Source: Natronomonas moolapensis 8.8.11
GTDB lineage: Archaea > Halobacteriota > Halobacteria > Halobacteriales > Haloarculaceae
Direction of reading: 5' to 3'
Assembly (NCBI RefSeq): GCF_000591055.1
Contig: NC_020388.1
Location: forward strand, 248,001-312,000
Length of the DNA stretch: 64,000 nt
Within the stretch, counting starts at the first letter, position 1, and every line of letters begins with the position of its first letter. Below the pieces are notes generated by a model that was given only the letters and a program-made list of their open reading frames with translations, was not told the origin of the DNA and made no database searches. Both the position numbers and the translations under genes were made by a program. Below, in pieces: positions 9,496 through 37,593 of this stretch.

Positions 9496-9912
9496 ATGGA
9501 AAAAACGCCGCAGGGTACGTCCGTTGGCGTCGACGATCCCTACGCGGTCGTCGAGCGGTGCGACTTTCTCACCGACGACGGGCGCTGCCGGTACGCCGCC
9601 GAGTACGGCCACAACGACCCCGAGTTCGCGCAGGCGCGTCGCGCCGACGGCTTCCGGTGTCCGGCCGCCGACCCCGAGGGGGAGTGGGCGTGGGCCGACT
9701 GCCCGAAGTTCCGCGCGACCGACGCCGCGCGGACGTGTCGCCGCTGTGGGCTCGCGGAGCGACGGCTGGCGGGCGAGGACCCCCGGCCGCTCCTCGAGGA
9801 GCACCACCTCGAGTACGCCGACGACGACCGGGCCGAACTGACACACGAGATCACGGTGTCGCTGTGTCGGTGGTGTCACGCCTACCAACTGGGATCGTAT
9901 ATACAGGCTTAA
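9496..9912 (+). CDS. DUF7097-like zinc-finger protein, 3' end replaced by element sequence
   Basis: Encodes 138 residues, of which about 129 belong to the original gene: Cys-rich segments [41 protein letters not shown] and CRWCHA suggest several zinc-binding sites. After CHA (codons 127-129) the frame crosses the 8-bp repeat at 9874-9881 into the integrated element, which supplies nine new codons and a TAA. The lost native end (KVHDSWARIDDD..., 48 codons) is found intact and in the same frame at 35,394-35,540. The family name is from memory. Whether the shortened protein works is unknown. Confidence 0.8.
9874..9881 (+). other. attL core (8-bp direct repeat TGTCACGC)
   Basis: Exact copy of 35,388-35,395. 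It reads TGT CAC GC as codons 127-129 of the interrupted host gene. Flanking bases differ between the two ends, so the identity is limited to 8 bp. Confidence 0.85.
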
Positions 9913-9936: not shown

Positions 9937-10272
9937 ATGGTCAAGGACGACCAGATACTGATTAGATTAGAGTCCAGTCAAAAAGAGAAGTGGCAGGAAC
10001 ACGCGGAAGATGAAGACCGTTACCGTGATACTACGGATTTAGTTGAACAGGCAGTTGAGGATAGAATATCTACCGATACAGAGGAGTACAGTCCAGAAGA
10101 CGCTATCCTCCAGATGAGTCAAGACATTCAGAATCTCTCGTCTGATATTGCTGAAATAAAAGAACTGAACGAAAAAATCGACAACACGCAGGCGACGAGT
10201 CTGGAGTTAGAGGAAACGGCGGATAGACTGGAGACGTTCATTAAAACGCGATTCGGTGGTGATGATGACTGA
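9937..10272 (+). CDS. Small RHH-like/coiled-coil protein preceding the integrase
   Basis: 111 residues from the ATG at 9937; a GTG at 9922 is less likely because a TTAATA box lies about 28 bases before 9937. The start (KDDQILIRLESSQKEKWQEHAED, then TTDLVEQAVEDRI) looks like a ribbon-helix-helix unit, and residues about 55-105 look like a coiled coil with heptad-spaced hydrophobics. Its last bases overlap the integrase start by 11, which suggests coupled translation. A role as excision or copy-control partner of the integrase is only an inference. Confidence 0.65.
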   Translation: MVKDDQILIRLESSQKEKWQEHAEDEDRYRDTTDLVEQAVEDRISTDTEEYSPEDAILQMSQDIQNLSSDIAEIKELNEKIDNTQATSLELEETADRLETFIKTRFGGDDD

Positions 10273-11266
10273 GGAAGTTGTATCAGATTTCTTAGAGGAT
10301 AAGTCGGATTTAGATGAGTCTTGGTTCGGTACGTGTAGGCGTATGACTGAGCATTTAGACGGGTTTCTTGAACAAGAGAATCTGAATCCTGAGGAAGTTG
10401 AGTTCCGAGGTCAGGATATAGAGGATTTTCAGGACTACTTACAGGATAATACAGATTGGGCTGATAGCACGGTGAAAAACCATGTAATGGCATTTCGTGA
10501 GCTAATCCGTTACGCTGTTGAACGTCGTTACGGATGGGATGCTCTGTTCAACAAAGGGAACCCTATGTCTATCTACTCTGCCGATCTGGATGATGGTCTC
10601 AAGTGGGAGGAGGAAACTGGAGAAGACATTCCTTACATTACTGAAGAGGAACACGAAGCGTTGCTGGATGAGAATGAGAATCCACGTGATGATGTAGTTT
10701 TACGCACGCTATGGGATACAGGTTGCCGACCAGCAGAATTACGTCGATTGACTCTTTCAGAAATAGACAAGACGGAGCTCATCAAGAATCGCAAAGTTAC
10801 GGTTCAAACCGCGAAACGAGAGAATCACGAAAGAGACGTTTACCTCTCACCTACAACAAGGAGTAAGTGGGTGTTCTGGCTCTACAAGGGCAAACGAGAC
10901 GCATACGGTAATAGTAGCCATTCCTCTGAATACGTGTTTCCGACACAGCGGACTGAAAAAATGAGTCAGGGAACGGTGAACAGACAGATTAAGAGATTAG
11001 CTGATAGAGCGGATATTCAGACTGTTGGATATGAACTGGAAGCAAATAATTATCTGAGAGGTGAGATGAAGAGTAAGACGCGTGAAATGGTTGAAATAAA
11101 CGCTAAGGCATATCGACATTCATTTGCTGTGCGTGCGTGTAAAAATGGAATAAATCTCGCTCTGCTGGCTGAATTGATGGGTCATGCGGATGAATCGAGC
11201 TTGAGTTCCTATACGAAATTTTTACCCTCTGATAAAAAGGAGGCTTGGGAACGATTCATTCACTAA
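10262..11266 (+). CDS. int: Tyrosine recombinase / integrase
   Basis: 334 residues from ATG 10262. The N-terminal half is a SAM-like core-binding domain (LNPEEVEFRGQDIEDFQDYL...). The catalytic half shows R156 in TGCRPAELRRL, K185 in QTAKREN, the box-II arginine R285 in KAYRHSF with Lys in place of the usual His three residues before it, H308 in LMGH, and nucleophile Y317 in LSSYTKF. It lies about 380 bases from attL, as expected for the enzyme that inserted this element. Confidence 0.93.
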   Translation: MMTEEVVSDFLEDKSDLDESWFGTCRRMTEHLDGFLEQENLNPEEVEFRGQDIEDFQDYLQDNTDWADSTVKNHVMAFRELIRYAVERRYGWDALFNKGNPMSIYSADLDDGLKWEEETGEDIPYITEEEHEALLDENENPRDDVVLRTLWDTGCRPAELRRLTLSEIDKTELIKNRKVTVQTAKRENHERDVYLSPTTRSKWVFWLYKGKRDAYGNSSHSSEYVFPTQRTEKMSQGTVNRQIKRLADRADIQTVGYELEANNYLRGEMKSKTREMVEINAKAYRHSFAVRACKNGINLALLAELMGHADESSLSSYTKFLPSDKKEAWERFIH

Positions 11267-19239: not shown

Positions 19240-20292
19240 TTACCAGTCGCTGTGGGATTCTTTATTATCGTAGAACTCATCATCATCGTCGGTTACCACA
19301 AACGTACCGCCGTCTGTATCTTCCTCATCACAGCCTCCGCACCAACCTTTGCCATGATGTGATTCGGAGTGGCATCTGACCGTCGAGCACATCCGATGCT
19401 TGCCCGTGATGAACCTGTGGCAGGACGTACACCAAATGCGGTAGTTGTAGTCTGCTGGGGACTTGGAATAGTGGCTGTTCGTCCGCTGAACACCCATAAT
19501 CTCCTCCCACTCGTACCAATTCCCTGTATGACCTGTACTCACGTCTCTGGCAACCGTTCCGTTTGGGAGTTCGACTGTCTCACCTCGGTGCTGGTACTGC
19601 CAGACATGAACCAGCTCGTGCCTGATTGTGTCCTCTACCGCTTCGAAGCCAGCGTTCTCTATTGTATGTTCGCTGATGCCGACAGTAACGTGATTATCAC
19701 CGCTGTAATCGGCTACTCCGTGCCGTCTGCGTGCCCTCTTTCGAGTCTCGAACACCACCTTCGAGAGGTCAACAGCAGAGAGTGCCCACTCGTCGCCGTT
19801 GATGACCTCGTTCGCATACTCTCGGATACGCTCAGTGTACTCGTGATCGTCACCCAATTCACCCTGTGTCATATCCACAGTTGCTGTGGCTGATTTCGGT
19901 TGCTTAGTGGGTATAGTTCCGTCAACGGACGCATTTGTCTCTTGATCTGTTTCAGGCTCAATCTCGAACTCTACCTCAACGCCACAATCTCTGAGAGTTT
20001 CCACGGCTTCCCGAGCAATTTCCTTGATGCCCTCCTCTCGCTGGTCAGCCTGCTGTTGCCGAAGCATCCGTCTAATTACCTTCACCTGCTCGTCCAGTCT
20101 CTCGGTTGCTCGTGTTCGATACGTCCCGACTGTGGATTCTGAAATGTCAAGTTCGTCAGCGACTGTGGCATACGACTTGGTTCGAGTACGACGGACGACC
20201 TCGGCTTCTCGATTCGAGAGCAAGAATCGGTCGTGTTCCAAGTCTGACGGCGATGGATTGGCTACCCGAGAGGATGACCGCTCATCGCTCAT
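19240..20292 (-). CDS. LuxR-type HTH fused to SprT-like zinc metallopeptidase
   Basis: 350 residues from ATG 20292. Residues 25-75 are a LuxR/sigma-like HTH (LSNREAEVVRRTRTKSYATVADELDISESTVGTYRTRATERL). Residues about 150-260 form a SprT/WssA-like domain with HELVH at 225-229, followed by a third-ligand region GHTGNWYEW. The C-terminus has Cys pairs CTSC, C-x4-C and CGGC that look like a zinc ribbon. SprT-like proteases act on DNA-bound proteins in other systems. The ATG overlaps the preceding stop by 11 bases. A regulator with protease activity, or a protease recruited to DNA, are both possible. Confidence 0.7.
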   Translation of the reverse strand: MSDERSSSRVANPSPSDLEHDRFLLSNREAEVVRRTRTKSYATVADELDISESTVGTYRTRATERLDEQVKVIRRMLRQQQADQREEGIKEIAREAVETLRDCGVEVEFEIEPETDQETNASVDGTIPTKQPKSATATVDMTQGELGDDHEYTERIREYANEVINGDEWALSAVDLSKVVFETRKRARRRHGVADYSGDNHVTVGISEHTIENAGFEAVEDTIRHELVHVWQYQHRGETVELPNGTVARDVSTGHTGNWYEWEEIMGVQRTNSHYSKSPADYNYRIWCTSCHRFITGKHRMCSTVRCHSESHHGKGWCGGCDEEDTDGGTFVVTDDDDEFYDNKESHSDW

Positions 20293-21064
20293 TCTCACCA
20301 CCTTGGATTGATTCGTTGCGGGCATTCTCGTCTTCATCGGCTATACTCTCTGCTACCTCCCGCATACACGCATCGCATAGGACAGTTGTCTCGCCGTCGC
20401 TGAGTCCGAGATACCTACCAGCTGGTGTCTCTGCCTGTACTACCCAATGTGTCTCAGCGATTGAAGCACATCTATCACAATCACTGGCAGAGCTCTCCTC
20501 AGCGTCTCCACTTCCTCGATCTTCGCTCTCAACACGCCCTGAGGCAGAGCCCATCCCTGATTTGATGAGACGAACCATCTGCTGGATTTGGTCGATTGCG
20601 AACTGCCGTGCTTCGTACCGACTGTACCAGTCGTCAGTCTGCCCAAGACTTTCATCCTCACCAAACCAGCTGACAGTCCACTTGCCGTCCCCAACCGCAT
20701 CGAGAGTAACCGTGTGATTGCCAGACTCCCAAGTAGCGGAGACGAACCTTGACTCACTTGTTGTGATTTTTCGTTCCCACCCCTCAAACTCCAGAAGTCC
20801 GAAATCGCTGTCTTGAGTGATTTTCTCGGGAACACGATTCCAACAGCGGTCGCATACATCCGCACTGGACGAGCCGACAAGTCCGAGGTAGTTGCCGACC
20901 GTTGTTCCAGCCTCCGCGGTGTGAGCTACATTCCTCGTTCGACCGCAATTACTACACCTGACCTGCTGGCGATTGTGTTGTTCAGTATTGGTGTCTACCT
21001 CACCGTCAGTCGCGGTTGATGAATCAGAGGAGTTCTCCGATGGTGAATCTACGTTCTCACGCAT
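20282..21064 (-). CDS. Protein with duplicated zinc-knuckle module
   Basis: 260 residues. Two related segments are seen: CSNCGRTRNVAHTAEAGTTVGNYLGLVG...CDRC (about 37-75) and CDRCASIAETHWVVQAETPAGRYLGLSD...CDAC (about 195-234). Both pair CxxC motifs around an A-E-[AT]-x-x-[AG]-x-YLGL core, so this is an internal duplication. The middle part (WERKITTSESRFVSATW...WTVSWF) looks beta-rich. It overlaps the gene upstream by eight bases. A DNA or protein-binding role is inferred from the zinc sites only. Confidence 0.55.
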   Translation of the reverse strand: MRENVDSPSENSSDSSTATDGEVDTNTEQHNRQQVRCSNCGRTRNVAHTAEAGTTVGNYLGLVGSSSADVCDRCWNRVPEKITQDSDFGLLEFEGWERKITTSESRFVSATWESGNHTVTLDAVGDGKWTVSWFGEDESLGQTDDWYSRYEARQFAIDQIQQMVRLIKSGMGSASGRVESEDRGSGDAEESSASDCDRCASIAETHWVVQAETPAGRYLGLSDGETTVLCDACMREVAESIADEDENARNESIQGGENER

Positions 21065-23516: not shown

Positions 23517-24584
23517 ATGAACACAACATCAATACAAGACTACGTTGAGTCCGCTAAACCCGTTATCGAAGATTCCCCGCAGATGGGCGAAGCAACGACG
23601 AAAGCGGCTCTTTTGCGTGATTTTATCGAACTACTTGGCTGGGAGATCCCAATGAACACGGAATTGGAGTACTCTGTGAATGCGTTTGGAAAGGTGTTCA
23701 AAGTTGACTACGCACTCGTACTTGACGGGCGACCTGTTGCTTTTCTTGAAGCAAAAGGGCTGGACACCACACTCACTTCCGACCATCGAGAGCAACTGAG
23801 CGAGTATATGCGGAGCGAAGACGTGAACTGGGGAATCCTGACTAACGGACAAAAGTACGAGTTCTACCAACGGCGGGTGATTGATACGAATGTCAAGATT
23901 GAGGCGGTAGAGCAGACGACGCTCCAACAACTCCCAAATAAGGGCAGTATTATTGAGGCGTATTGTACAGAGACTATCCAAGAGGAGGAATCTGGGACTA
24001 TTATTGAGCACATCAGAGAATTGCGAGACTCGTGGGAGACGTTGACTACTGAGAAGGAAGAATTAGCCATAGCCGTTGTGGATACGCTCACTGAGTCCAT
24101 CTCTGACGCCGTCGAACCAGAGGCGAGGTCGCAAGCGAAAGAGATGATTGACAGACTCATCACGGACATCGAAGCCGAGATAGACACTGACACAACGGAT
24201 CAAGTAGGTGAGCCCCCTGTCTCAGGCGGTTCAAGTGGAGATACGCCAACCCTTTCAGATTCGTACTCCGTCGAAATCGTTCAGGGTGGTAACGTTATTG
24301 AGACGTTCGAGGATTCCGTTCAGAGCGACCTGATGGCGTCGGTAGTGAACTACCTCGTGGAAAACTACGACCTCATCGACGCCGTTCAGCCACTCCCATA
24401 CATCCCCGCAGAAAAGCGTGCTATCATCAACGACAGCCCAGCGTACAGCGATACTGAGATGGCACAGCCACGGGAGTTGGAGGAGGGTTACTATCTTGAG
24501 GTTAACTTGAGCTGGGGTCAAAAGAAGCGAGAGATGGAACGGCTGGCTGATGCTTGCGGTCTGGAAATCAATATCGAAGGATGA
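23517..24584 (+). CDS. HsdR_N-type PD-(D/E)xK nuclease-like protein
   Basis: 355 residues from ATG 23517. Residues 20-130 match the N-terminal domain of type I restriction R subunits: GEATTKAALLRDFIELLGWEI, D64 in FKVDYALVLDG, and E78-A-K80 in PVAFLEAKG. No helicase motor follows; instead there is a helical middle region and a beta-rich C-terminus (SYSVEIVQGGNVIETF..., YYLEVNLSWGQKKREMERLADACG). Similar stand-alone proteins occur in defence loci. Catalytic activity is inferred from the intact D-ExK set. Confidence 0.7.
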   Translation: MNTTSIQDYVESAKPVIEDSPQMGEATTKAALLRDFIELLGWEIPMNTELEYSVNAFGKVFKVDYALVLDGRPVAFLEAKGLDTTLTSDHREQLSEYMRSEDVNWGILTNGQKYEFYQRRVIDTNVKIEAVEQTTLQQLPNKGSIIEAYCTETIQEEESGTIIEHIRELRDSWETLTTEKEELAIAVVDTLTESISDAVEPEARSQAKEMIDRLITDIEAEIDTDTTDQVGEPPVSGGSSGDTPTLSDSYSVEIVQGGNVIETFEDSVQSDLMASVVNYLVENYDLIDAVQPLPYIPAEKRAIINDSPAYSDTEMAQPRELEEGYYLEVNLSWGQKKREMERLADACGLEINIEG

Positions 24585-24805: not shown

Positions 24806-24854
24806 CCCGTTCGGAACTCGTGTCTTTTTACTCTGAACTGGCAAATATCGTGTA

Positions 24855-25409
24855 GTGGCAGGGTTTGAGATTGCGAACGTTGCGGGGACGATCACCTACC
24901 AGCAGGAGCTTGACCTATCAGCGTTGGCTGAGACGTTCAGACAGCGACCTGAAATCAACTCTGTTACCTACGAGCCTGATGAAAACCATTGGTTACAGGT
25001 CTGGTTTGCCCCCAACGATACTTACGTATCGTTCTATCGAAGTGGAAAATGTTCGATTGTGGGAGCGACATCTCCAAAACAATTTGACGAATTAGTAGAG
25101 CGGGTGAATGCTCTAATGCGAGAACTGCTGGAGTTTGATTATGAACCTACCGCTAAAATCAACAACATCGTCGCAACTGCTGAGTTAGATTCACTCGCAT
25201 CATTAGAGACTATCGCTATCGGACTTGGATTAGAGCAAACTGAATACGAGCCTGAACAGTTCCCTGCCCTCATTCACCGTTATAAAGGCTCTGTTCTGCT
25301 CGTTTTCTCCAGCGGGAAGATTGTCTGTACTGGAGCTGCTGAAATGAAACAGGTTTCGTCAGTCATTGATGATATCACTGAGCAGATAGAGGCAATCACA
25401 ATTGAATAA
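24855..25409 (+). CDS. Divergent TATA-box-binding protein homologue
   Basis: 184 residues from a GTG at 24855. Two TBP repeats are visible. Repeat 2 (about 101-183) is recognisable at once: INNIVATAELDSL, EQFPALIHRYKG, LLVFSSGKIVCTGA, with the DNA-intercalating Phe positions F136 and F151. Repeat 1 (about 4-92) keeps IANVAGTITYQQELDLSALAE and FYRSGKCSIVGA but has lost the FPGL-like segment and is shorter on motifs. Known: TBP bends promoter DNA and recruits TFB. Haloarchaea often encode several TBPs. This copy is element-borne and lies 78 bases before the methylase gene. Confidence 0.85.
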   Translation: MAGFEIANVAGTITYQQELDLSALAETFRQRPEINSVTYEPDENHWLQVWFAPNDTYVSFYRSGKCSIVGATSPKQFDELVERVNALMRELLEFDYEPTAKINNIVATAELDSLASLETIAIGLGLEQTEYEPEQFPALIHRYKGSVLLVFSSGKIVCTGAAEMKQVSSVIDDITEQIEAITIE

Positions 25410-25487: not shown

Positions 25488-28400
25488 ATGCCCTCATCAC
25501 AAATCACTGCCGAAGACGTAGCCGACTGGGATTCACTTGGAGAAATAGCGGATTGTTTTGAAGAAAAAAAGAATTTGAAGAGGCGAGAAGGTCTGAGCGA
25601 TAGGGACGACGAACTGGTTTTAGAGATAGACGACGGGCAGTTTATGATTCTTATCGAGTCGGAGCCGAATAGATCTGCCAGCGACTATCAGTCCCGAACC
25701 AATGCGAGGCGTCGGACTAATTTCGTTGCTACACCTGATTATCAGAGCTTCACCTTCACGACACGTAAGAGGTCTTTCGACGAACACGGGGCGATAAATT
25801 TCCAGCAGTTTAGCTTTGACAAGGATGAGATTGTCTCTGGAGGCGGTAAGAGGTTCTCTAAGCTGGAAAAAATAAATGAACTGGAATATGGAGAGCCATA
25901 CAAAATATACGAGCTTTACGATACCAGAGAAGTAGTTGACGAGTTCTATGAGGAGTTCGAAGACTTACGTACCGACCTGATACAGGATGTATCGGGAATT
26001 GATGATAATAGAGGAGACGCAAAGGAGCGTTTCGTTCAGGTACAACTTGACCGTTTACTGTTCCTCTATTTCATACAAGAGAAAGGGCTTCTTGACCTCA
26101 ACCAGAGCTACTTAGACAAAATTCATCAGTCTGCGGTAGGGGAGGGAGAGGACGTGTATGAGTCTTGGCTCAAGCCGTTATTCTTTGATGCTCTTGGAGA
26201 AGGTAAAAGACGAGAGAAACTTGGGAACGTTCCCCATCTAAACGGTGGTCTTTTTAGCCAGAGTCCTATTGAAGAGGAATTTCCAGAAGCTAAATTAGGA
26301 GATTCCAAACAAGAGACGAACGACCTATATAGGGAGACTCTTGACTTTCTTGACGATTGGAACTGGCATGTTGACGAGAGGTTAGATATAGTTGACGAGA
26401 AACGCATATCTCCCGAAGTACTGGGTCATATCTTCGAACAATCGGTCAATCAGAAAGAAATGGGGGCATACTACACCCCTGAAGAAATCACCTCGTTTAT
26501 GGCTTGGAACACAGTTCATCCCTATCTTCTGGATAGTCTCAATGAGGAGGTGGGAAGCTCGTATGAGGAACTGGATGAGGTGTTCGGATTAGACCCTGAG
26601 ATGGACGGATCTGGAGACCGAGCCGTTGCTGACGGAGGGATAGCTAAGACAGGTACAATCGATAGTATACAGACCGACCACGTTGAGACTCTTTATTTTG
26701 ATATACTCAAAAAAATAAGTATTCTCGATCCTGCCGTGGGTAGTGGTGCGTTTCTCCTTGCCGTCCAAGAAGTTCTGATCGACACATATCTCTCCTGTAT
26801 TGAACACTTTCGAAATATAAAATCATTCAAAAGAACAGGGCGTGTACAAAATGAACTCGAAAGAATAGAGGAGAGAGGGAACGCCATCTTATTTGCTAAG
26901 TACGAAATCATCCTCAACAATCTCTACGGGGTCGATATAGACCAAGGTGCCGTTGAGATCTGTAAGCTACGTCTTTGGCTCTCTACGGTTGCGGATATAG
27001 AGAATGACCCTGATGAAGTAGAGCCTCTGCCTAACATCGACTTCAACATAAGGCAAGGTAACTCGTTGATGGGGTATGTCTCCTTCCTTGACGATGACGA
27101 CACGGAGAGTATTCAAGGAACTCTTGAAGAGTGGGGAGCTGTCGAGAACAAGGTGGAATCAAAGTACGGAGATGTACTGGAGGCTATACAAGCACATAAG
27201 AGTGCGTCGAGTGGTGAAGTAGCGTCGCAGAAGCGGAGAGAGGCAGAGGAACTGATACAGGAGTACAGCAAAGATTTTGACGAGAACATTCTCCAACGGT
27301 TCCACGAGATGGGTTACGAGGATATGGGGTTAGGAGACTTACAAGAGTTCTCTCCGTTTCATTGGGTTCTTGAGTTCGCTGAGGTGTACTCAAAGGGTGG
27401 ATTCGACGTGCTGATAGGAAATCCGCCGTGGGATCGTCTCAAGCCACTTCGAGACGATTACTTCTCTAAGTACGATGAGGTTTTCAGGACTCGAATGCCA
27501 GAGGACAAAGACAAAAAACAGGAGGAGTTGCTTGAACGTGAGGAGATAAGCCAAGGCTGGGAGGAGTATAATGAGAGAATGGAGATGCGTGGAGAATACT
27601 ACACTCATTCTCCTGACTACGAGTTACAGAGCCCAACAGTCGGAGGAAGTAAGAGCACAACAGAAAACGACCTTTCAGCCCTGTTCTTTGAGCGTGTATT
27701 CAAACTGGCACGAGAGGAAAGCTACGTCGGGCAGATATTACCAGGTGTAATATTTAACGGAGCTTCCGCGAAGGATTTACGAATGAATCTGCTTAACGAA
27801 ACGGAGTTACAATCTCTGCCCGTATTTACTAATCGTGGAATATTCGATAATATAGATAATAGGTTTGTCTTCGGCATCCCCATTTTCAAAGCGTCTGGTG
27901 AAACAAACGAGATTTATGGCGGTTATAGAGACGGGGATCTCAGTATACTGAATGATATGGAAAACGGAGGTATCCCTATATCGAGAAAAGTTCTTGAACA
28001 GTATTCGCCTGAAGCACGTATTTTCCCATATGTGGAAGAAAGAGAAGAAGTTGAGGTATTAGAGAAGATCTTTGAGCATCCTCCTGTTTCAGAGCCAAGA
28101 GACGGGGCTTGGCACGCTCATCCATACCGCGAATTAGACCGCACCAACGACCGTGATAGGTTTGTGGAAAGCGAAAATGAAGGAGATTATCCAGTTCTGG
28201 GTGGAAGTAATATCTACCAATACGCATACACTCCAGATTACATAGAAAATCTTGAACCCGCGAAGTTCTGGAGCGTAGAGAGTAAGAAAGACCCCGATGC
28301 GAGTGCGAAGCAGAGGATACGTGAGAAAAATTACAGGAAACTAAAACGTGGACTCTATGACGCATTCGATGGTTCAGGTTCGCAAAAGAAGTTTGTCAAC

Positions 28401-29072
28401 AAGATGCTGAGACAGCATCGTGGCGAGGAGCTTTCAGAGGCAGATGTTCTTCTCGACTGTACCGAGTACAGGATAGTTTACAGGGATATAGCACGAGCCA
28501 ATGATGAACGGACTATGATTGCCTCGGTTATTCCAAAAGGCGTTGTTTGTCATAACAAGCTTCATACGATACGTCCATACACAATAGAGCCAGATAACGA
28601 GGATCTCTCTAAGAAACCGTTACATGATGTGTATAAGAGAGTCTTCACCGATAGAGAGCTGTTTGTCGCAGTTGGTCTCCTCAATAGTATACCGTTTGAC
28701 TTTCTGATGCGGACGAAGATAGACTCAACAGTAGTGATGTACAAATTTAAAGAGTCCCAGATGCCCAGACTTACAAAAGGCGACGATTGGTTTGAGTACA
28801 TTTGGACACGCTCCGCACAACTCAATTGTTACGGAGACGAGTTTGGGGAGATGCGTGAACGTCTTGATGGAATAGAGCCTGCTACCGACGAGGATGAAAG
28901 GCGTAAGCTTCAGGCAGAGATTGATGCGGGTGCGTTCCACGCATACGGGCTTGATAAAAAAGAGGTTGAGTACGTTCTTGACGACTTTCACAGAGTTCGG
29001 AATCCTCGTAAGATGACAGAGAGTTATTTCGAGCTTGTGAAAGAAAAGTACAAAGAGTTACAGAGCAGTTAA
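25488..29072 (+). CDS. Eco57I-class adenine-specific DNA methyltransferase, large
   Basis: 1,194 residues. Methylase motif I DPAVGSGAF at 414-422 and motif IV NPPW at 645-648 identify an N6-adenine methylase of the gamma-like order; QKEMGAYYTPEEI (about residue 325) is the usual pre-motif. About 320 residues precede the methylase core and about 500 follow it, the latter probably holding target recognition. I see no convincing D-ExK nuclease motif at the N-terminus, so cleavage must come from another gene if this is a restriction system. It converges with the PLD-SNF2 gene, with 52 bases between stops. Confidence 0.85.
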   Translation: MPSSQITAEDVADWDSLGEIADCFEEKKNLKRREGLSDRDDELVLEIDDGQFMILIESEPNRSASDYQSRTNARRRTNFVATPDYQSFTFTTRKRSFDEHGAINFQQFSFDKDEIVSGGGKRFSKLEKINELEYGEPYKIYELYDTREVVDEFYEEFEDLRTDLIQDVSGIDDNRGDAKERFVQVQLDRLLFLYFIQEKGLLDLNQSYLDKIHQSAVGEGEDVYESWLKPLFFDALGEGKRREKLGNVPHLNGGLFSQSPIEEEFPEAKLGDSKQETNDLYRETLDFLDDWNWHVDERLDIVDEKRISPEVLGHIFEQSVNQKEMGAYYTPEEITSFMAWNTVHPYLLDSLNEEVGSSYEELDEVFGLDPEMDGSGDRAVADGGIAKTGTIDSIQTDHVETLYFDILKKISILDPAVGSGAFLLAVQEVLIDTYLSCIEHFRNIKSFKRTGRVQNELERIEERGNAILFAKYEIILNNLYGVDIDQGAVEICKLRLWLSTVADIENDPDEVEPLPNIDFNIRQGNSLMGYVSFLDDDDTESIQGTLEEWGAVENKVESKYGDVLEAIQAHKSASSGEVASQKRREAEELIQEYSKDFDENILQRFHEMGYEDMGLGDLQEFSPFHWVLEFAEVYSKGGFDVLIGNPPWDRLKPLRDDYFSKYDEVFRTRMPEDKDKKQEELLEREEISQGWEEYNERMEMRGEYYTHSPDYELQSPTVGGSKSTTENDLSALFFERVFKLAREESYVGQILPGVIFNGASAKDLRMNLLNETELQSLPVFTNRGIFDNIDNRFVFGIPIFKASGETNEIYGGYRDGDLSILNDMENGGIPISRKVLEQYSPEARIFPYVEEREEVEVLEKIFEHPPVSEPRDGAWHAHPYRELDRTNDRDRFVESENEGDYPVLGGSNIYQYAYTPDYIENLEPAKFWSVESKKDPDASAKQRIREKNYRKLKRGLYDAFDGSGSQKKFVNKMLRQHRGEELSEADVLLDCTEYRIVYRDIARANDERTMIASVIPKGVVCHNKLHTIRPYTIEPDNEDLSKKPLHDVYKRVFTDRELFVAVGLLNSIPFDFLMRTKIDSTVVMYKFKESQMPRLTKGDDWFEYIWTRSAQLNCYGDEFGEMRERLDGIEPATDEDERRKLQAEIDAGAFHAYGLDKKEVEYVLDDFHRVRNPRKMTESYFELVKEKYKELQSS

Positions 29073-29124: not shown

Positions 29125-32100
29125 TTACTCTTCGATAACTCCCCAGCACATCAGTTCAGCATTAACTCCGCTTGTGCCTGCCAGAGTTTCCTGATACGAC
29201 TTCTCTACGTACTCATTCAAAAACTCCTCTACTTCCTCAAAGAAGTCCTCCGTATCCCAGTCCATAAGCGTGCGTTCGTCCTCACGGAACGTCTCACGCA
29301 GGATTCTGTCCTCGTCTGTCTGGTCAAGACCTACATCAGCTAATCTTCCCCGCAATTTATCCGCCATCTCTATGTCCTCTTTTTGATGTAGATGTTCCAG
29401 ATAACTGATTATCCGTTCCTGCTCTTTGGAGATGTTTCCCCCCTGTTTGAATTGTTCTTCGCTCTGACCTGCCTCAAGTTCCTCACGTCGCTCCTCGGTA
29501 ATCTCTTCTATTTCTGTCCTCTTCTCTAAGACTGCCTCTTCATCCATCGCAACTCTCTTTCCCTCTGTGTCAGCGTCAATATTGAACGCTCTCACTTTAC
29601 CGATGTGTTGCGGTTCTCCTCCAAACGGTACATGACAGAGTGTCCTCTCTATCCTGTTCAGCGGACTGTCCTTGTCATCATACCATATGTGTGCTAAACC
29701 GAATACACCCGCTCCTAATGTTCCCTTGAAGTAGTTGTAACAGGTGTAGAGTAAGTCTCTTTCGTCAGGAGCGGTCTCGAAGTATTCCTCAGCGTATTCA
29801 AAGTCCTCTGGCTCAAGATCGTGGTCATCAAGCAACTCTTCCCTGAGTAAGAGCCTCTCGAAAGCCCTCTCTTCATCACTACCCGCCTGACTGAACACTG
29901 CGTTTCTCCTCGTGTCGTCAAGTTCGTTAATATCTCTAACTGCCCTCGACCGCTTCAGCGTGTCCTCTATCTCATCTCTCTGGATCTCTCCTATCGTCTT
30001 CTCAGTCTCAACACCTGCCCTCTCCAAAACATCGTCCTCATTCGGATCAAGTATGTTGTTCTCCTTTCCAACGATTAATGCGATGTCGCTTATTTTGGCT
30101 TGAAGCCTCTTGAGTAGTTTAATCGTCGCCTCTATGTCTCCGTCAGGGTGGAAGTTGTGAACGTACTTGTCGTCCGTATTGCCTATCCTGTCCACACGTC
30201 CTACTCTTTGAACGATACGCATCGGATTCCACGGCAGGTCATAATTAACAACCGTTTCTACGTCTTGTAGATTAACACCCTCACTCAGGGTGTCGGTCGC
30301 AACGACATGCTGTAACTCTGTCTCACCAGACTTAGTTAGCTGTCTCTGGTAGCCCGACGCATTAGGTGCGAACCGTTTGATAACCTCCTGTTTGTGATCG
30401 TCGCCTCCAACGACAACTGCGGAGTTTGAGGACGTAATCGGTGAATCAGAATGACCCAACAGTGAAGAGTGTACGTAGCGGGCGGTGGCTCGATATTGTG
30501 TAAAGACGAGTACTTTCCCCTCGCTCTCGTTGAGTATCTTGACGAGGCGATCTATTTTTGGGTCTCTGAACTCCCGTAGAGCGAAGACGGATTCGTAGAA
30601 ATCTCTTGTTTTTTCTGGTGCGTCGGAAAGGTCGGCGTTCGGGTATAGAGTCGGGTTTAGTTCGTCCTCTGGCACATCGGGTATGTTGGCAACGCCTTTG
30701 GAGTCCAGCCAGCTTCTGAGTTCTACGCTGTTATCTCTGACTTGGTAAGCCTGTTCACCAATATCCCCGATGAACATCGAGACGAAGTAGGCTAACAGAG
30801 TCAGGTCTTCGTATATGTAGTTGATTACCTCTCCGACGGTGGCGTCCGCCAGTTCCTGTGTCTCCTTTTGGCTACCTTCTCGCAACGAACCTTGGTCGAA
30901 TCCGAGGTCTTCAAGAGTGTTTTCCAGTTCTTGTGCTTCCTCCTCATTCTGAGTGTACTCATCAAGGGTAACCGTCTCCTCTTCTTCGTTGTCGTTCGAA
31001 ACGGTATGTATCTCTCTTATATGTACGTCTTCCTTGAAGTTCTCAAGTAGCGATAGAAGACGTGTTTCGCTGTCGTGAAGCGTCTCTATTGACTTCACGA
31101 AGGCAAACGTAGAGGATTCCAGACGCTTTAGCAGATTAAGCTTATAAAGTGCTTTGAGAGTCATCCCTGCCTGTGGATTCTTGATAGTTATGTGCGGAAG
31201 ATGAAGTGCGTCCATAACGTTAGGTAGGGAGTCATAGACGGGTCTGTACGCCTTTGGGAGCTCGTATTCCTCTGGGTGTACCTCAGGTGGTTTGAAACTG
31301 ATCTCTATATCGTCCTCCTCCTGTATTTGGTCTTTCACGTGGTTCCTTGTTCTAAGAACCATCACCTCGTTGAGAATCTTCGAGATCTCTTCCGAACGCG
31401 TCTGTAAGCGTTTGTTGAGTTCGTCAAGCCTCTTTTGACTCACCTCGTCGTCCCCTGAAACAAGCTCCTTCCTGTCCTCGGAAATGTCTATGTACTCGTC
31501 AAAGGAACTAAAATCAAGATTAGCGTTGTTACGTATCTCATTAGCTCCCGTGAACAGGGTAATCAGGTTCTGAAGATCTTCGACGGTGTTGTTGATTGGG
31601 GTAGCAGTCAGCATTATCATAGTGTTCCCCTTCAACATACGGAGGTTTGCGTGCCGTCTGGTTCCTTTGTAGTCTTCGTCAGAAGTTGCGTCAGCCTTCC
31701 ACTCACCCATATTCCTGAACCTATGAGCCTCGTCAATCAGAATGACATCGAAATGTTCGTCCAAGTTTTCGACCTCTTCTCTCGTGAGGTTCTGAAACTT
31801 ACTGATACTCATAACCCGCAGGTGTTCTCCGTCTACTTGTAGGTTGAAGAACGGGTCTCCATCCTCGTTTGTGTCCTCTTCAAGCAGGTTAGTCCACTGT
31901 TTTGTGAGGTTCGCAGGCACTACCAGAAGGCAGTTTTTCGCTTGGTTTCTGTAATCAACGAGTAATTCTGCTCCGACGAATGACTTACCAAGACCGACGC
32001 TGTCGCTCACTATACATCCGTTGTACTTGTCGAGTTTCTCCCTCGCACTTTCATAACCGATATGCTGGAAGTAATAGAGCGGACTCTCCCTGCCTTCGTC

Positions 32101-32838
32101 CACTTTTCCACCGAGTTCGTCGTATGCCAGCATTTTGTACAGCTCAAAAGGCTCTATGTGGGTACCGAACTCCTCCGTCGTTTCCTCCTGCTCTTCCTTC
32201 CAATCCTGATACTTCTCATTGGTATCTATGATTTCCACGAGATCTTCACTGAACTCCTGAGAATTAGCCCAGTAGTTGTCAAACCACCCCTCAAATTCCT
32301 CCGCTATATCCCTTTCTTCGGTCATCACGTTGAGTTCAACGTTTTGCGTATGACCCTTCTTGGAGAAGTTGGATGACCCTATCACGGTTGTTGCGGTACC
32401 TCTTCCGTTCTCTTCCCTACGAAAACAGGCTCCTTTCGAGTGGAAAATACCCTGATCTGGATCGTGTACCCGTATCTGTACCTTATTCTCGGCTATAAAC
32501 TCCTTCAGATTGTCAAGCCTCTCTATTTGAGGTTTGTTCAGGTCTTCTATTTCTTCAGCTACCGACTTTCGGATGCGTTCCCTGAGGCTCATCCCCTCTT
32601 GTATCTCCTCGGCAGTTCTGGCATCGGTGCTCGTCGCTCCCATTAGAATACGGAGAGGTGCCCTGCCGAGATCATCAGGGTCAGCGAGGTTTTCAAGATC
32701 TTCCTTGACCAGATTGAAACCAGAAACGTAGAAGTAGCCCGTACAGAGTCTTATTTCTCTGCTGTCCCGTGCCAATTTGCTATATACATCGGCTAAGTTC
32801 TCGCCTGTATTGTCTATCAGAGGGTCAAGGTTTGTCAT
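29125..32838 (-). CDS. PLD nuclease-like domain fused to SNF2/DEAH helicase
   Basis: 1,237 residues. Residues 1-185 form a phospholipase D-type domain with IFHSKGACF (H133, K135) and GSSNFSKKG (N157), a single HxK(x)nN half-site. The SNF2 motor follows: Walker A SVGLGKS at 280-286, DEAH at 369-372, TATPINN near 410, and in the second half DTLSEGVNLQ and QRVGRVDRIG. A helical C-terminal tail of about 300 residues ends the protein. Known relatives with these parts act in DISARM-like or other restriction systems. Together with the convergent methylase it probably forms a self/non-self discriminating defence system. Confidence 0.85.
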   Translation of the reverse strand: MTNLDPLIDNTGENLADVYSKLARDSREIRLCTGYFYVSGFNLVKEDLENLADPDDLGRAPLRILMGATSTDARTAEEIQEGMSLRERIRKSVAEEIEDLNKPQIERLDNLKEFIAENKVQIRVHDPDQGIFHSKGACFRREENGRGTATTVIGSSNFSKKGHTQNVELNVMTEERDIAEEFEGWFDNYWANSQEFSEDLVEIIDTNEKYQDWKEEQEETTEEFGTHIEPFELYKMLAYDELGGKVDEGRESPLYYFQHIGYESAREKLDKYNGCIVSDSVGLGKSFVGAELLVDYRNQAKNCLLVVPANLTKQWTNLLEEDTNEDGDPFFNLQVDGEHLRVMSISKFQNLTREEVENLDEHFDVILIDEAHRFRNMGEWKADATSDEDYKGTRRHANLRMLKGNTMIMLTATPINNTVEDLQNLITLFTGANEIRNNANLDFSSFDEYIDISEDRKELVSGDDEVSQKRLDELNKRLQTRSEEISKILNEVMVLRTRNHVKDQIQEEDDIEISFKPPEVHPEEYELPKAYRPVYDSLPNVMDALHLPHITIKNPQAGMTLKALYKLNLLKRLESSTFAFVKSIETLHDSETRLLSLLENFKEDVHIREIHTVSNDNEEEETVTLDEYTQNEEEAQELENTLEDLGFDQGSLREGSQKETQELADATVGEVINYIYEDLTLLAYFVSMFIGDIGEQAYQVRDNSVELRSWLDSKGVANIPDVPEDELNPTLYPNADLSDAPEKTRDFYESVFALREFRDPKIDRLVKILNESEGKVLVFTQYRATARYVHSSLLGHSDSPITSSNSAVVVGGDDHKQEVIKRFAPNASGYQRQLTKSGETELQHVVATDTLSEGVNLQDVETVVNYDLPWNPMRIVQRVGRVDRIGNTDDKYVHNFHPDGDIEATIKLLKRLQAKISDIALIVGKENNILDPNEDDVLERAGVETEKTIGEIQRDEIEDTLKRSRAVRDINELDDTRRNAVFSQAGSDEERAFERLLLREELLDDHDLEPEDFEYAEEYFETAPDERDLLYTCYNYFKGTLGAGVFGLAHIWYDDKDSPLNRIERTLCHVPFGGEPQHIGKVRAFNIDADTEGKRVAMDEEAVLEKRTEIEEITEERREELEAGQSEEQFKQGGNISKEQERIISYLEHLHQKEDIEMADKLRGRLADVGLDQTDEDRILRETFREDERTLMDWDTEDFFEEVEEFLNEYVEKSYQETLAGTSGVNAELMCWGVIEE

Positions 32839-33717: not shown

Positions 33718-34044
33718 TCATTCGTCAATAGGAGCGAGACGGGAGATAGGGAAAGCGTACACCTTCGCATCGGCATTTTGAGCCAGAAGAGTTCGCCCTT
33801 CCTCTGTTAGTTCGTGAGGATTAGACGGTAAAGAGTCCGCATAAACGGCTCGCACAACAGCATCGCCACGCTGTACGTACTCGTAGCGAGAATTGAAATC
33901 GTACGCCGTCAAATCCGAGTAGCGATTCTCAGAGGGGTCTCGCTCCCTAATCACGTACTCGTCGGCTCGTTTCGATACGGTCTGGATTACTACTACCTCA
34001 GAGTTCTCTTCTCTATCTCGTAATATCTCACCTTTTTGATACAC
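33718..34044 (-). CDS. Hypothetical protein, paralogue of the next gene
   Basis: 108 residues from a GTG. Beta-rich start (GEILRDREENSEVVVIQTVSKRADEYVIRE), then LTAYDFNSRYEYVQRGDAVVRAVYADSL and a C-terminal VYAFPISRLAPIDE. The order LT-x2-D...DAV-x2-VY...P-x-SRL is shared with the protein at 34,133-34,471, so the two arose by duplication. A TTTAGGGT box lies 32 bases before the start. Function unknown. Confidence 0.5.
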   Translation of the reverse strand: MYQKGEILRDREENSEVVVIQTVSKRADEYVIRERDPSENRYSDLTAYDFNSRYEYVQRGDAVVRAVYADSLPSNPHELTEEGRTLLAQNADAKVYAFPISRLAPIDE

Positions 34045-34132: not shown

Positions 34133-34471
34133 CTACTGTGGGTAGTCTTGAAAAAGAAGTCGTGATTCGGGGAGACTCATCACCTGTACCTCCGAGTGCC
34201 AGAGATAGTCGTACCGTTCCTCTCTGTCCATCTCAACCAGTTCATCCCGCGATTTCTCTACGCTATTGCTGTCGACCGCTTGGAGATAGACGACGCCATA
34301 GACCGCATCCGATGGAGAGCACTCGTAGTAGAGGTCGTTCACCGTCAGTTCCTCATCCAAGTTTACAAAAACCTCGTCAGCTGGACGGTCAAACTCCTGA
34401 ATGACGCAGACAAGTAGGTCAGTATTCAATTCATATGCTAATTCACCTCCCTTAGAATATTGATAGTTCAC
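34133..34471 (-). CDS. Hypothetical protein, paralogue of the previous gene
   Basis: 112 residues from a GTG. LLVCVIQEFDRPADEVFVNLDEELTVNDLYYECSPSDAVYGVVYLQAVD and a C-terminal VQVMSLPESRLLFQDY align with the neighbouring 108-residue protein. No known domain. A TTTAGGGT box starts 28 bases before the start codon. Confidence 0.5.
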   Translation of the reverse strand: MNYQYSKGGELAYELNTDLLVCVIQEFDRPADEVFVNLDEELTVNDLYYECSPSDAVYGVVYLQAVDSNSVEKSRDELVEMDREERYDYLWHSEVQVMSLPESRLLFQDYPQ

Positions 34472-34526: not shown

Positions 34527-34874
34527 TTAGCTGTCGAGAAATCCCTGTGATCGCAGATTCTCTGCCCACGTCTCCAACACGTCGTCTATATCCAGCCCTT
34601 CGGTGCTGTATTCGTATGCGTTCAGAGCGTCAATTCGATACGCAATCGGCGTCCATTCACCGTCTGATTCGACTCGAAACCTAATCTCGGGATCTCGCAT
34701 CAGGTCGCCCCGCTGGAGGTAGTACTGGCAGATAGTGAGTTCGTCCCCGTGTCGTTCAATACTCAAATCCATTATTTCGTCCGAGTCAGACTCGATGTCG
34801 AGATAGAACTCAGAGTCGATTGATTCGCCGTGCTGACTAACGATAGAAGTGATAATATTCCTGAATTTCACCAC
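34527..34874 (-). CDS. DUF6908-like small protein
   Basis: 115 residues from the first of two tandem GTG codons. The segment SIERHGDELTICQYYLQRGDLMRDPEIRFRVESDGEWTPIAYRIDALNAYE resembles a small domain common on mobile elements (DUF6908, from memory) with a GDLMRDPE core. The remaining C-terminus is helical (DDVLETWAENLRSQGFL). Function unknown. Its box copy 3 overlaps the end region of the gene upstream. Confidence 0.5.
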   Translation of the reverse strand: MVKFRNIITSIVSQHGESIDSEFYLDIESDSDEIMDLSIERHGDELTICQYYLQRGDLMRDPEIRFRVESDGEWTPIAYRIDALNAYEYSTEGLDIDDVLETWAENLRSQGFLDS

Positions 34875-34906: not shown

Positions 34907-35212
34907 CTATGTCGGGTCGGGAACGACACGATACGCGACGTGTCCGTGTTCAGTCGTCGTTCCTGCTTCAACCGTCCCGATAGCAAGCCAGTAGTCGGTT
35001 TTTTGCTGTGCTCTGTTAGCTGAAACCCCAGCTCCGTCCGCCAATTCGTCAGGGGTAAATGAGCCCATCATCTCACTCGCTACTTCGAGTTTTTCGTCTT
35101 CATTCAGCGAAGATTCCGTCTCCTGCTCGATCTCGTCTATCATCTCGGTGATTCTTTGTTTGACCGTCTCGAAACCAAGGTCGTCGTCAAGCCGTGGGAT
35201 TGCCTGTGTCAT
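34907..35212 (-). CDS. Helical hypothetical protein, HTH-like
   Basis: 101 residues. ETVKQRITEMIDEIEQETESSLNEDEKLEVASEMMGSFTPDELADGAGVSANRAQQKTDYWLAIGTVEAGTTTEHGHVAYRV looks like helices followed by a helix-turn-helix and a small wing. Probably DNA-binding, possibly a regulator of the right-end cluster. It is the outermost gene of the element at the right end and has its own box copy 4. Confidence 0.5.
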   Translation of the reverse strand: MTQAIPRLDDDLGFETVKQRITEMIDEIEQETESSLNEDEKLEVASEMMGSFTPDELADGAGVSANRAQQKTDYWLAIGTVEAGTTTEHGHVAYRVVPDPT

Positions 35213-35387: not shown

Positions 35388-35395
35388 TGTCACGC
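35388..35395 (+). other. attR core (8-bp direct repeat TGTCACGC)
   Basis: Exact copy of 9874-9881. The reading frame of the interrupted host gene resumes here as C-H-A-K. Confidence 0.85.
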
Positions 35396-35842: not shown

Positions 35843-35940
35843 CATCCTCCTCGCCGTAAACGGAGAGGGACTGAAGATCCCTCAAGCAGCCGGGCGAAGC
35901 CCGGCGACGGCGAGGCTTCCCATGCATGGGGAATACCAGT
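35843..35940 (-). ncRNA. Putative TnpB guide RNA scaffold (reRNA/omegaRNA) and right end
   Basis: Directly after tnpB on the same strand: stem-loops GAGGGA-ctgaaga-TCCCTC (35,865-35,883) and GCCGGGC-gaa-GCCCGGC (35,889-35,905), plus a palindromic CCCATGCATGGG. In this family the RNA spans the tnpB 3' end and the right end, and the guide is the host sequence just beyond. That guide would here match the end of the gene at 35,672-35,842. Inferred from position and structure. Confidence 0.5.
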
Positions 35941-37199
35941 CAGTCGTCGCTGGTAGAGGGTTTCGACTCTTCGTAGGCCGTGAGTGTCATCTGCGCTGGT
36001 GCGCTCGTCTCACGGTGAGTCGTGGCCGTGTCACTACGACTCCCATCCCGAGGCGAGTCATCGCGTCCGGCCTTGTCAAGCGGGACGCTCTCTCCCCACG
36101 GGTCAACCCGTCGTGCGATATTCGCGGAAGCGTTGATGTCGGCCTGAAACGTCGAAACGTGGCAGTCGTCGTGCGGACACCGGAACTCGGCTTGGGAGTC
36201 CCGCCGACCGATGCGGTGGCACGAGTGGCACGTCTGCGAAGTGTACGCCGGATTCACGTACTCGACCGGGATACCTGCTTCCGTCGCCTTGTCCTCGATG
36301 CGCCCTTGCAGTCGAGCAAACGCCCACGAGTGAAGCCGACGGTTCATGTACTTCCCGTAGTCGAGACGCTCACGGATGTACGTCAAGTCCTCCATCACCA
36401 ACACCGGATTCTCGAACTGTTGGGCGTACTCGATGGCTTCCCGAGACGCTTTCTCCACGATGTCGGTGAGCGCGTTCTGGTAGTGGGCAAACCGTTCGTC
36501 GGTACGCCACTCGGATGCGTCACGCTCTTGGAGTCGTTTCAGGGTCGTGTACATCTCTTTGCGGAGATGCTTCGCTCTGCTTCCGCTACGCACAAGCGGG
36601 TCAGTCGGAGAACCGTCCTTGAGGGCACAGCCCGTGATGAGGGCAGTTTCTCCGATGTCTAAGCCGATGTGCGTGATGTCACTGTCCGCCACTGGTTCTT
36701 CGACCGGGTACTCGACGGTGACGTGCAGTACCCAGTTCGTTCGGTGCTGTTGAAGCCGTATCTCGCCCGCTTTCGCGTCCTCCGATACGAGGTCGTGCCA
36801 GAGCCCCTCCTGTTCGGGGTTGATGCGGAGCGGTATCCAGAAGTTCGTCCCGCGCCCCGGTCGGGGGACCCACCATGTGAACTCGTAGTCGCGCTCCTCC
36901 GAGTGGTCGAACGTCGCGGCTTGGTTGGTGAGCCGAACCGGGTGTTCGTCGTCCAACTCCTGCGCGTTGTACGTCTTGCGGAGTTTCGGGATGTAGTTGC
37001 AGAGTGCGGCTTTGGCCTGATACGGCAGGTCGTAGGGCGTCACGATGTCGCTCACCGACGACATGGTACTCGCCCCGGCGTCGAACGCTTCTTGCAGGCC
37101 GTCACGGTACGTGTCGAGTAGGTCGTTCAGTTTCTCCTGTTTGTGCGCGGTAGGTGGCGCGAACGTCGCCTGCAACGTCTTCGTGACGGTCGGAGACAC
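35940..37199 (-). CDS. tnpB: TnpB-type RNA-guided nuclease of IS605 family
   Basis: 419 residues from a GTG one base after the tnpA stop. All RuvC-like residues are present: D in HIGLDIGETAL, E in VLVMEDLTYI, and D in QADINASANIA. The zinc finger reads CHSCHRIG...CPHDDC. TnpB nucleases cut DNA guided by an RNA made from the element's own end. The C-terminal tail after the last Asp is about 55 residues and polar. The protein appears complete. Confidence 0.9.
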   Translation of the reverse strand: MSPTVTKTLQATFAPPTAHKQEKLNDLLDTYRDGLQEAFDAGASTMSSVSDIVTPYDLPYQAKAALCNYIPKLRKTYNAQELDDEHPVRLTNQAATFDHSEERDYEFTWWVPRPGRGTNFWIPLRINPEQEGLWHDLVSEDAKAGEIRLQQHRTNWVLHVTVEYPVEEPVADSDITHIGLDIGETALITGCALKDGSPTDPLVRSGSRAKHLRKEMYTTLKRLQERDASEWRTDERFAHYQNALTDIVEKASREAIEYAQQFENPVLVMEDLTYIRERLDYGKYMNRRLHSWAFARLQGRIEDKATEAGIPVEYVNPAYTSQTCHSCHRIGRRDSQAEFRCPHDDCHVSTFQADINASANIARRVDPWGESVPLDKAGRDDSPRDGSRSDTATTHRETSAPAQMTLTAYEESKPSTSDD

Positions 37200-37200
37200 G

Positions 37201-37593
37201 CTACTGTTTCTCCACGTACTTCATCAGCACGTCGATGCTCACTTGGCCAGTAGTAGCGAGGAAGTACCCCGGTTGCCAGAACGCCTTGTCGAGCGCCTGC
37301 CGAACCTCGGGGTTCTCGTCACGGATTTTGCGGGACGTGACGCCCTTGAGGGAGTTGATGAACTTGGTGAGGTTGGTCGTAGGCTTCGCCGTGAACAGGA
37401 TGTGAACGTGGTCGGAACCGCCGTTGACGTTCTGGATGCTCACGCCGAAATCCTCGGTGATGTCGCTGGCAATTTCACCGATGCGTTCGGCTATCTCGTC
37501 GGTGAGGATGTCCGCGCGGTACTTTGTGACGGTTACAAAGTGATATTGGAGCGCGTAGACTGTGTGCGACCCGGTTTCGAGGTTATACTTCAT
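37201..37593 (-). CDS. tnpA: IS200-like Y1 transposase TnpA
   Basis: 130 residues. HUH motif in GGSDHVHILF, catalytic tyrosine in VLMKYVEKQ at the C-terminus, and the N-terminal YALQYHFVTVTKYR typical of IS200-type transposases. It moves single-stranded DNA by 'peel and paste'. No frameshift or stop is seen, so it is probably active. Confidence 0.93.
   Translation of the reverse strand: MKYNLETGSHTVYALQYHFVTVTKYRADILTDEIAERIGEIASDITEDFGVSIQNVNGGSDHVHILFTAKPTTNLTKFINSLKGVTSRKIRDENPEVRQALDKAFWQPGYFLATTGQVSIDVLMKYVEKQ

Follow-up and report, generated by a model that had tools for sequence, protein, structure and literature searches.

A TATA-binding protein (TBP) gene in the stretch of Natronomonas moolapensis DNA analyzed here (64,000 nucleotides, hereafter the window) is a member of a large group of haloarchaeal TBPs that have lost both intercalating phenylalanines of the N-repeat, retain a canonical C-repeat, and are encoded beside, and often overlapping, genes of DNA-methylation-based defence. 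The defence types adjoining the group are type I restriction-modification (R-M) systems, type IIG/Eco57I enzymes with an SNF2 helicase, and BREX-like PglX/PglZ/BrxHII loci. The window TBP probably acts as a transcription factor that serves defence cassettes of this kind, and is probably not a decaying spare copy. The asymmetry itself was already known, and what is new is the linkage to defence and the selection acting on the rebuilt half. The abundance of TBPs in haloarchaea has been a question for two decades and is most often discussed in terms of environmental promoter selection. Through their association with R-M and BREX-like genes, together with the purifying selection, the asymmetric TBPs gain a concrete and testable setting.

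A Genuine TBP with One Canonical and One Rebuilt Repeat

The TBP gene (24855-25409, + strand) begins with a GTG start codon and encodes 184 amino acids. The protein matches Pfam PF00352 with E=5.2e-34 and 116 bits (cut-off 22.9). In a Pfam genome scan its repeats score singly at 76.5 bits (C-repeat) and 42.6 bits (N-repeat), each above the curated PF00352 cut-off, the N-repeat weakly so, and the two repeats of the host main TBP score 104.8 and 106.1 bits in the same scan. An AlphaFold2 model, whose input included 17 relatives, forms the TBP saddle (mean pLDDT 92, pTM 0.83), and its top PDB matches are 1MP9 (TM 0.85), 1QNA, and 1AIS (TM 0.83). By fold and descent this is a genuine two-repeat TBP, though a non-canonical one, and an origin of the ORF by chance or artefact is rejected on the basis of Pfam, fold, and conservation. 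The original prediction of a TBP with an asymmetric pair of repeats is thus upheld by Pfam, by the fold, and by alignment to the host TBP; the saddle, whose lack was to have counted against it, is present in the predicted structure.

When aligned to the host main TBP, the N-repeat stirrup changes from YDPEQFPGL to YEPDENHWL. The rebuilt segment N44-H45-W46-L47-Q48 (24984-24998, +) replaces (Q)FPGL(V); residue pairing here could slip by one, and no alignment puts a phenylalanine there. The second phenylalanine of the pair is substituted by Y61 (25035-25037, +), as seen in the alignment of symmetric and asymmetric TBPs. Overall, QFPGL becomes NHWLQ and F becomes Y, both intercalating phenylalanines are gone, and the signature of the four positions is NYFF versus the canonical FFFF. 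The C-repeat retains the stirrup EYEPEQFPAL (25242-25271, +), which serves DNA intercalation and carries the TFB docking loop (EPEQ), along with LLVFSSGKIVCTGA, the segment LLVFSSGK, and both intercalating phenylalanines, as had been predicted for the second repeat.

The first repeat had been described as having lost its FPGL-like stirrup and keeping only the beta-strand outline. The first part is correct, and the loss even extends past the stirrup to the second phenylalanine. The second part does not hold, because N8, R62, G64, and G70 are retained and new residues have become invariant: N44, H45, W46, Q48, Y57, F60, Y61, S67, and others are identical across 18 relatives of 50-73% identity. 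More broadly, FPGL is present in 91-100% of symmetric TBPs, and the position of Y61 is F in 114 of 114 symmetric TBPs and Y in 91% of TBPs lacking both N-repeat phenylalanines. Among 85 haloarchaeal TBPs of the latter type, the N-stirrup mostly reads YH(G)L or NHWL, and YEPEQFP of the C-stirrup is 96-100% conserved.

In TBP-DNA complexes, the C-repeat contacts the upstream half of the box and uses its stirrup loop to dock TFB/TFIIB, and the N-repeat contacts the downstream half. Because the DNA-contact residues of one half differ from those of the host TBPs, altered DNA specificity relative to the host proteins is plausible. The host genome carries three further TBPs, each with four phenylalanines. 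Canonical archaeal TBPs (haloarchaeal TbpE; solved structures 1MP9, 1AIS, and 2Z8U) share with the window TBP the saddle, the TFB docking loop of the C-repeat, and its phenylalanine pair, whereas the window TBP has a replaced N-repeat pair and FPGL stirrup and resides on a mobile defence cassette.

The closest described relatives are the tbpC-like TBPs. According to Becker et al. 2014 (PMC4230888), these proteins lack the N-terminal phenylalanine pair and other TBPs lack only the C-terminal pair, and the choice between non-functional and specialised tbpC-like proteins is left undecided. Like them, the window TBP is an accessory haloarchaeal protein of two repeats that shows the defining loss of the N-terminal pair and retention of the C-terminal pair. 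The TBP of pNRC100 (YYFF) fits their description of tbpC. However, the window TBP falls in a separate, strongly supported clade carrying NHWLQ rather than YHGL, and neither linkage to R-M genes nor purifying selection on the N-half appears in the available text of that paper.

The TBP Gene Is Part of a Mobile Defence Cassette

The prediction that the TBP is encoded by an element was also confirmed. The gene lies within a 25.5-kb low-GC island (44-54% versus 64-71%) that carries a tyrosine integrase gene (10256-11266, +; Pfam PF00589, 1.3e-19) and the attachment core TGTCACGC at both ends, with the right copy (35388-35395, +) matching the left copy (9874-9881, +). The element is integrated inside a protein-coding gene whose ORF is split at the core (...CRWCHA / KVHDSW...). 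A tRNA-Ser gene was considered as the attachment site and rejected, because it is not repeated and the core lies in the protein gene. Elsewhere in the element, a gene at 19240-20337 (-) encodes a LuxR-type helix-turn-helix (HTH) fused to an SprT-like metallopeptidase domain. Just beyond its right end (35940-37593, -) is an IS200/IS605-type insertion in which a likely TnpA gene accompanies a gene for a TnpB-like RNA-guided nuclease with a Cas12f1-like TNB domain.

Directly upstream of the TBP gene is a gene for an HsdR_N/PD-(D/E)xK-like nuclease (23520-24584, +; Pfam PF13588, 4e-7), whose single-sequence structure model was uninformative (pLDDT 36). The TBP gene of Haloquadratum walsbyi plasmid PL100 has the same neighbor, which shares about 71% DNA identity with the HsdR_N-type gene of the window. 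Directly downstream lies a gene for an Eco57I-type (type IIG-like) DNA adenine methyltransferase (25488-29072, +; Pfam PF07669, 1.4e-24; PADLOC REase_MTase_IIG, 1.5e-67), which is the sole Eco57I methyltransferase found by Pfam in the host genome. A convergent gene of the same cassette (29125-32838, -) encodes a PLD and SNF2 helicase protein (Pfam PLDc_2, SNF2, and Helicase_C) that is nearest to HKD+Snf2 of PADLOC (7.8e-79) and weakly similar to DrmD. In total, Pfam recognizes HsdR_N, Eco57I, the PLD/SNF2 helicase, a zinc ribbon, and an HTH protein among the neighbors of the TBP. The scanned window neighbors include no PglZ of BREX with BrxHII and no DrmB of the DISARM set (DrmA, DrmB, and DrmC with DrmMI/DrmD).

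Asymmetric TBPs Are Linked to DNA-Methylation-Based Defence Genes

Relatives at 52-74% identity form a distinct clade that occurs on plasmids and in genomes of many haloarchaea, after which identity falls to about 40%. On the TBP tree, the window clade (18-19 rows, SH-aLRT 99) stands apart from the group holding the pNRC100 TBP, and the deeper branching order of the TBP groups is weakly supported. On the four plasmids examined first, the TBP gene adjoins type I R-M genes and a gene for a YgjP/SprT-like peptidase. Across the sampled loci the context is type I hsdMSR, Eco57I plus an SNF2 helicase, or a single PglX-like enzyme. More distant members are found next to Hma-like genes or within BREX-like loci that encode PglX, PglZ, and BrxHII, and PglZ lies beside PglX in two of these relatives (L235 and L257). 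The pNRC100 TBP gene of Halobacterium NRC-1 is the final gene of a methyltransferase-helicase-TBP run.

Asymmetric TBPs are found in mobile settings that include both plasmids and viruses. In the haloviruses HRTV-9 and HJTV-2, the TBP gene adjoins type IIG (HRTV-9) and Eco29kI-type R-M genes; a single-protein viral scan gave no match. As a separate observation, TBP-linked operons of type I R-M (L044, L045, L046, L048, L043, L076, and L078) regularly carry a gene for a YgjP/SprT-like metallopeptidase after hsdR.

Among haloarchaeal loci, 82 of 85 TBPs lacking both N-repeat phenylalanines have an R-M or BREX-like/defence-helicase component within 5 kb, versus 1 of 34 symmetric TBPs, a contrast with a Fisher p of about 1e-24 that is not corrected for kinship. 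The one linked symmetric TBP is among the 19 canonical copies, and none of the 15 accessory copies is linked. Loci were picked for their resemblance to the window TBP, except in 59 genomes, where a Pfam TBP match alone was used, and context was not a criterion; R-M genes were detected with profiles built from these same loci and a motif. The symmetric accessory TBPs form the comparison set. When nine control genomes were scanned in full with Pfam, no N6_Mtase or Eco57I gene fell within 10 kb of their symmetric accessory TBPs, and most of the nine do hold such genes elsewhere. In a second set, consisting of named genomes, a methyltransferase gene lies within 10 kb of 7 of 10 asymmetric TBPs versus 1 of 73 symmetric TBPs.

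The asymmetric TBPs trace back to a small number of ancestors, and the linkage counts are not independent; a test by independent pairs of phenylalanine loss against R-M linkage yielded only 3-6 pairs and had no power. Stronger evidence than these kinship-limited p-values comes from the tree, on which the type of partner switches at least 21 times, indicating that TBPs and unrelated enzymes came together anew many times. We regard the linkage of asymmetric TBPs to methylation-based defence genes as nearly certain. Our search of the open-access literature returned no report of a linkage between haloarchaeal TBPs and R-M genes, and TBPs go unmentioned in two surveys of R-M systems in archaea and haloarchaea.

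One alternative is that accessory TBPs and R-M genes merely share plasmids and islands and have no functional tie, given that all of these TBPs are on mobile or accessory DNA and that many R-M systems have no TBP nearby. Chance co-residence of this kind is improbable, as none of the 15 symmetric accessory TBPs is linked, and the R-M genes lie only one or two genes from the asymmetric TBPs and often overlap them. Specifically, in 19 cases the R-M gene closest to the TBP gene overlaps it from upstream on the same strand, and in 11 more it lies within 50 nucleotides, and in many operons the TBP gene comes last, with overlapping stop and start codons.

This tight packing could also mean that the TBP is no transcription factor and instead serves as a DNA-binding subunit or target-presenting cofactor of a restriction or defence complex. 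Bacterial TOTE and TALON conflict systems offer a precedent, with TBP-domain proteins encoded in defence operons (PMC12458937). Those systems differ in combining bacterial TBPs with TPR-OB/CSD proteins, and Pfam finds no TPR-OB/CSD protein among the genes neighboring the window TBP. Moreover, the partners (type I, IIG, BREX-like, and Eco29kI-type) have no mechanism in common, and a part that stays constant while the enzymes around it change is likelier to be a regulator than a fitted subunit. The TFB docking loop, superfluous for a subunit, is almost invariant and points to transcription, and TBP genes of the window clade usually have a putative promoter of their own at -30. We consider the subunit role unlikely, though less so than chance co-residence.

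The Rebuilt N-Half Is under Purifying Selection

Pairwise dN/dS values were calculated by the Nei-Gojobori method for pairs with measurable dS. Between the window TBP and its two closest relatives, dN/dS is 0.16-0.18 overall, 0.12-0.13 in the N-half, and 0.18-0.25 in the C-half. The remaining pairs give 0.05-0.24 overall, and across all pairs tested the whole-gene values span 0.05-0.25 and those of the N-half 0.00-0.22. The altered N-half is under strong purifying selection. This low N-half dN/dS and the invariance of N44, H45, W46, Q48, and Y61 argue that the rebuilt half is not decaying.

Decay of a TBP copy under relaxed selection was considered for TbpC by Becker et al. 2014, and it would account for the loss of residues used in DNA bending. 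According to that study, Halobacterium tbpC, with the same phenylalanine loss, is dispensable and its transcript was not detected in one strain (PMC4230888). For the window TBP, simple decay is disfavored by the dN/dS values, and given also the new invariant residues and intact ORFs, we regard this explanation as highly improbable.

A different possibility is that the protein is a decoy or dominant-negative TBP, which binds TFB through its C-half, forms no productive complex, and thereby damps host or viral transcription. The loss of one phenylalanine pair with retention of the TFB loop would suit such a role, and metazoan TRF2, which lacks the intercalating phenylalanines, does not bind TATA boxes (PMC10005294). 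However, the invariant new residues of the N-stirrup and the strong purifying selection on the N-half exceed what a mere loss of function needs, and N8 and other minor-groove residues are retained. We judge a decoy role quite unlikely.

Putative Promoter Boxes of the TBP Clade

A putative TATA-like box, TTTTTACT, is located at -30 of the TBP gene (24825-24832, +). Of 16 genes of the clade, 15 have a TTWW box that starts at -30 or -29 relative to the start codon, as expected for leaderless transcripts. The consensus of the clade box is TTWWNMCY. An earlier test found no difference between clade and controls in the G+C content of the 3' half of the box (p=0.52), and a G+C-rich 3' half is rejected as a general promoter signal. 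Only a C at position 7 is enriched (13 of 15 clade genes versus 24 of 107 control genes), in a test chosen post hoc. The box evidence for an altered target is only suggestive, and we infer that the rebuilt N-half may read an altered downstream half of TTWWNMCY. The TBP coding sequence and about 60-80 nucleotides upstream are conserved among the window, H. walsbyi PL100, and genome G026, and the R-M partner differs. TBP and promoter thus appear to travel as one unit.

Another recurring box in the window, TTTAGGGT, was evaluated as a target of the TBP and rejected. It occurs three times, approximately 21-32 nucleotides upstream of small genes on the minus strand (33718-34044, 34133-34471, and 34527-34874), and a similar box, CTTGGGGT, precedes the gene at 34907-35212. 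No link to the TBP was found, and the boxes and small genes are conserved in the chromosome of H. walsbyi C23 (L264), which lacks the TBP cassette. The longer motif shared by the C23 boxes may just as well serve as the operator of a different regulator. A small protein tested from the TTTAGGGT genes has only one relative in 392 genomes.

A Possible Role in the Control of Defence Cassettes

Our preferred explanation is that the asymmetric TBP is dedicated to a defence cassette and recruits host TFB to particular promoters with a controller-like logic, a proposal to which we assign an even chance of being correct. Under this mechanism, the canonical C-half would bind the upstream half of the box and dock host TFB, and the rebuilt N-half would read a different downstream half, with the second kink either absent or different. 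Host polymerase would then be steered to the TBP's own promoter, and perhaps to those of the cassette, rather than to host TATA boxes. The role might resemble that of the C proteins of bacterial R-M systems by controlling when methylation and restriction set in after a mobile cassette has entered a new host. Alternatively, the TBP could sustain expression of the cassette while host transcription is disturbed. On whether transcriptional control of the cassette is the function of asymmetric TBPs, our judgment is evenly divided.

The likeness to bacterial C proteins concerns only this proposed role, in which a mobile R-M cassette brings along its own small regulator. An HTH fold and C-box operators define the C proteins, whereas the window TBP has the fold of a basal transcription factor. 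Metazoan TRF2/TLF/TBPL1 is alike in principle, being a TBP paralog that has lost intercalating phenylalanines and serves a subset of promoters, but it is eukaryotic, arose through an unrelated event, and has no defence context.

Several considerations weigh against a dedicated transcription factor, among them the dispensability of Halobacterium tbpC noted above. Efficient DNA bending by the TBP of M. jannaschii needs both phenylalanine pairs (PMC4041446), and the window TBP might not bind promoters at all. In addition, overlapping operons in which the TBP gene comes last fit a stoichiometric subunit and a feedback regulator equally well.

We offer more tentatively, as a broader scheme that we think somewhat less likely to be true than false, that haloarchaea run methylation-based defence with a dedicated, half-rebuilt TBP. 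This protein would read an asymmetric box, with a T/A-rich upstream half and an altered downstream half, and would couple host TFB to defence promoters, so that a TBP would take the part that controller proteins play in bacteria, sometimes as complementary half-rebuilt pairs in one operon. If this is true, a basal factor serves as a portable cassette regulator. The asymmetric TBPs also offer a test, set up by nature, of the capabilities of a TBP that has only one phenylalanine pair.

Loci with Two TBPs

Mirror-image TBP pairs occur within one operon at each of two loci, L108 (2821-3369 and 6310-6858) and L228 (9691-10248 and 6180-6728). In each pair, one TBP lacks the phenylalanine pair of the C-repeat (FFSP) and the other lacks that of the N-repeat (YYFF), and the gene order is methyltransferase, TBP, SNF2 helicase, TBP. 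About 16 more haloarchaeal loci carry two TBPs, at least one of which is asymmetric.

A different arrangement, with no methyltransferase gene nearby, is seen in contigs from Thermoplasmatota and related Euryarchaeota. There, a second TBP that has lost one or both N-repeat phenylalanines directly precedes a canonical TBP with all four (L146:1797-2872, L171:7571-8670, L173:748-1932, L193:8066-9165, and L201:587-1686).
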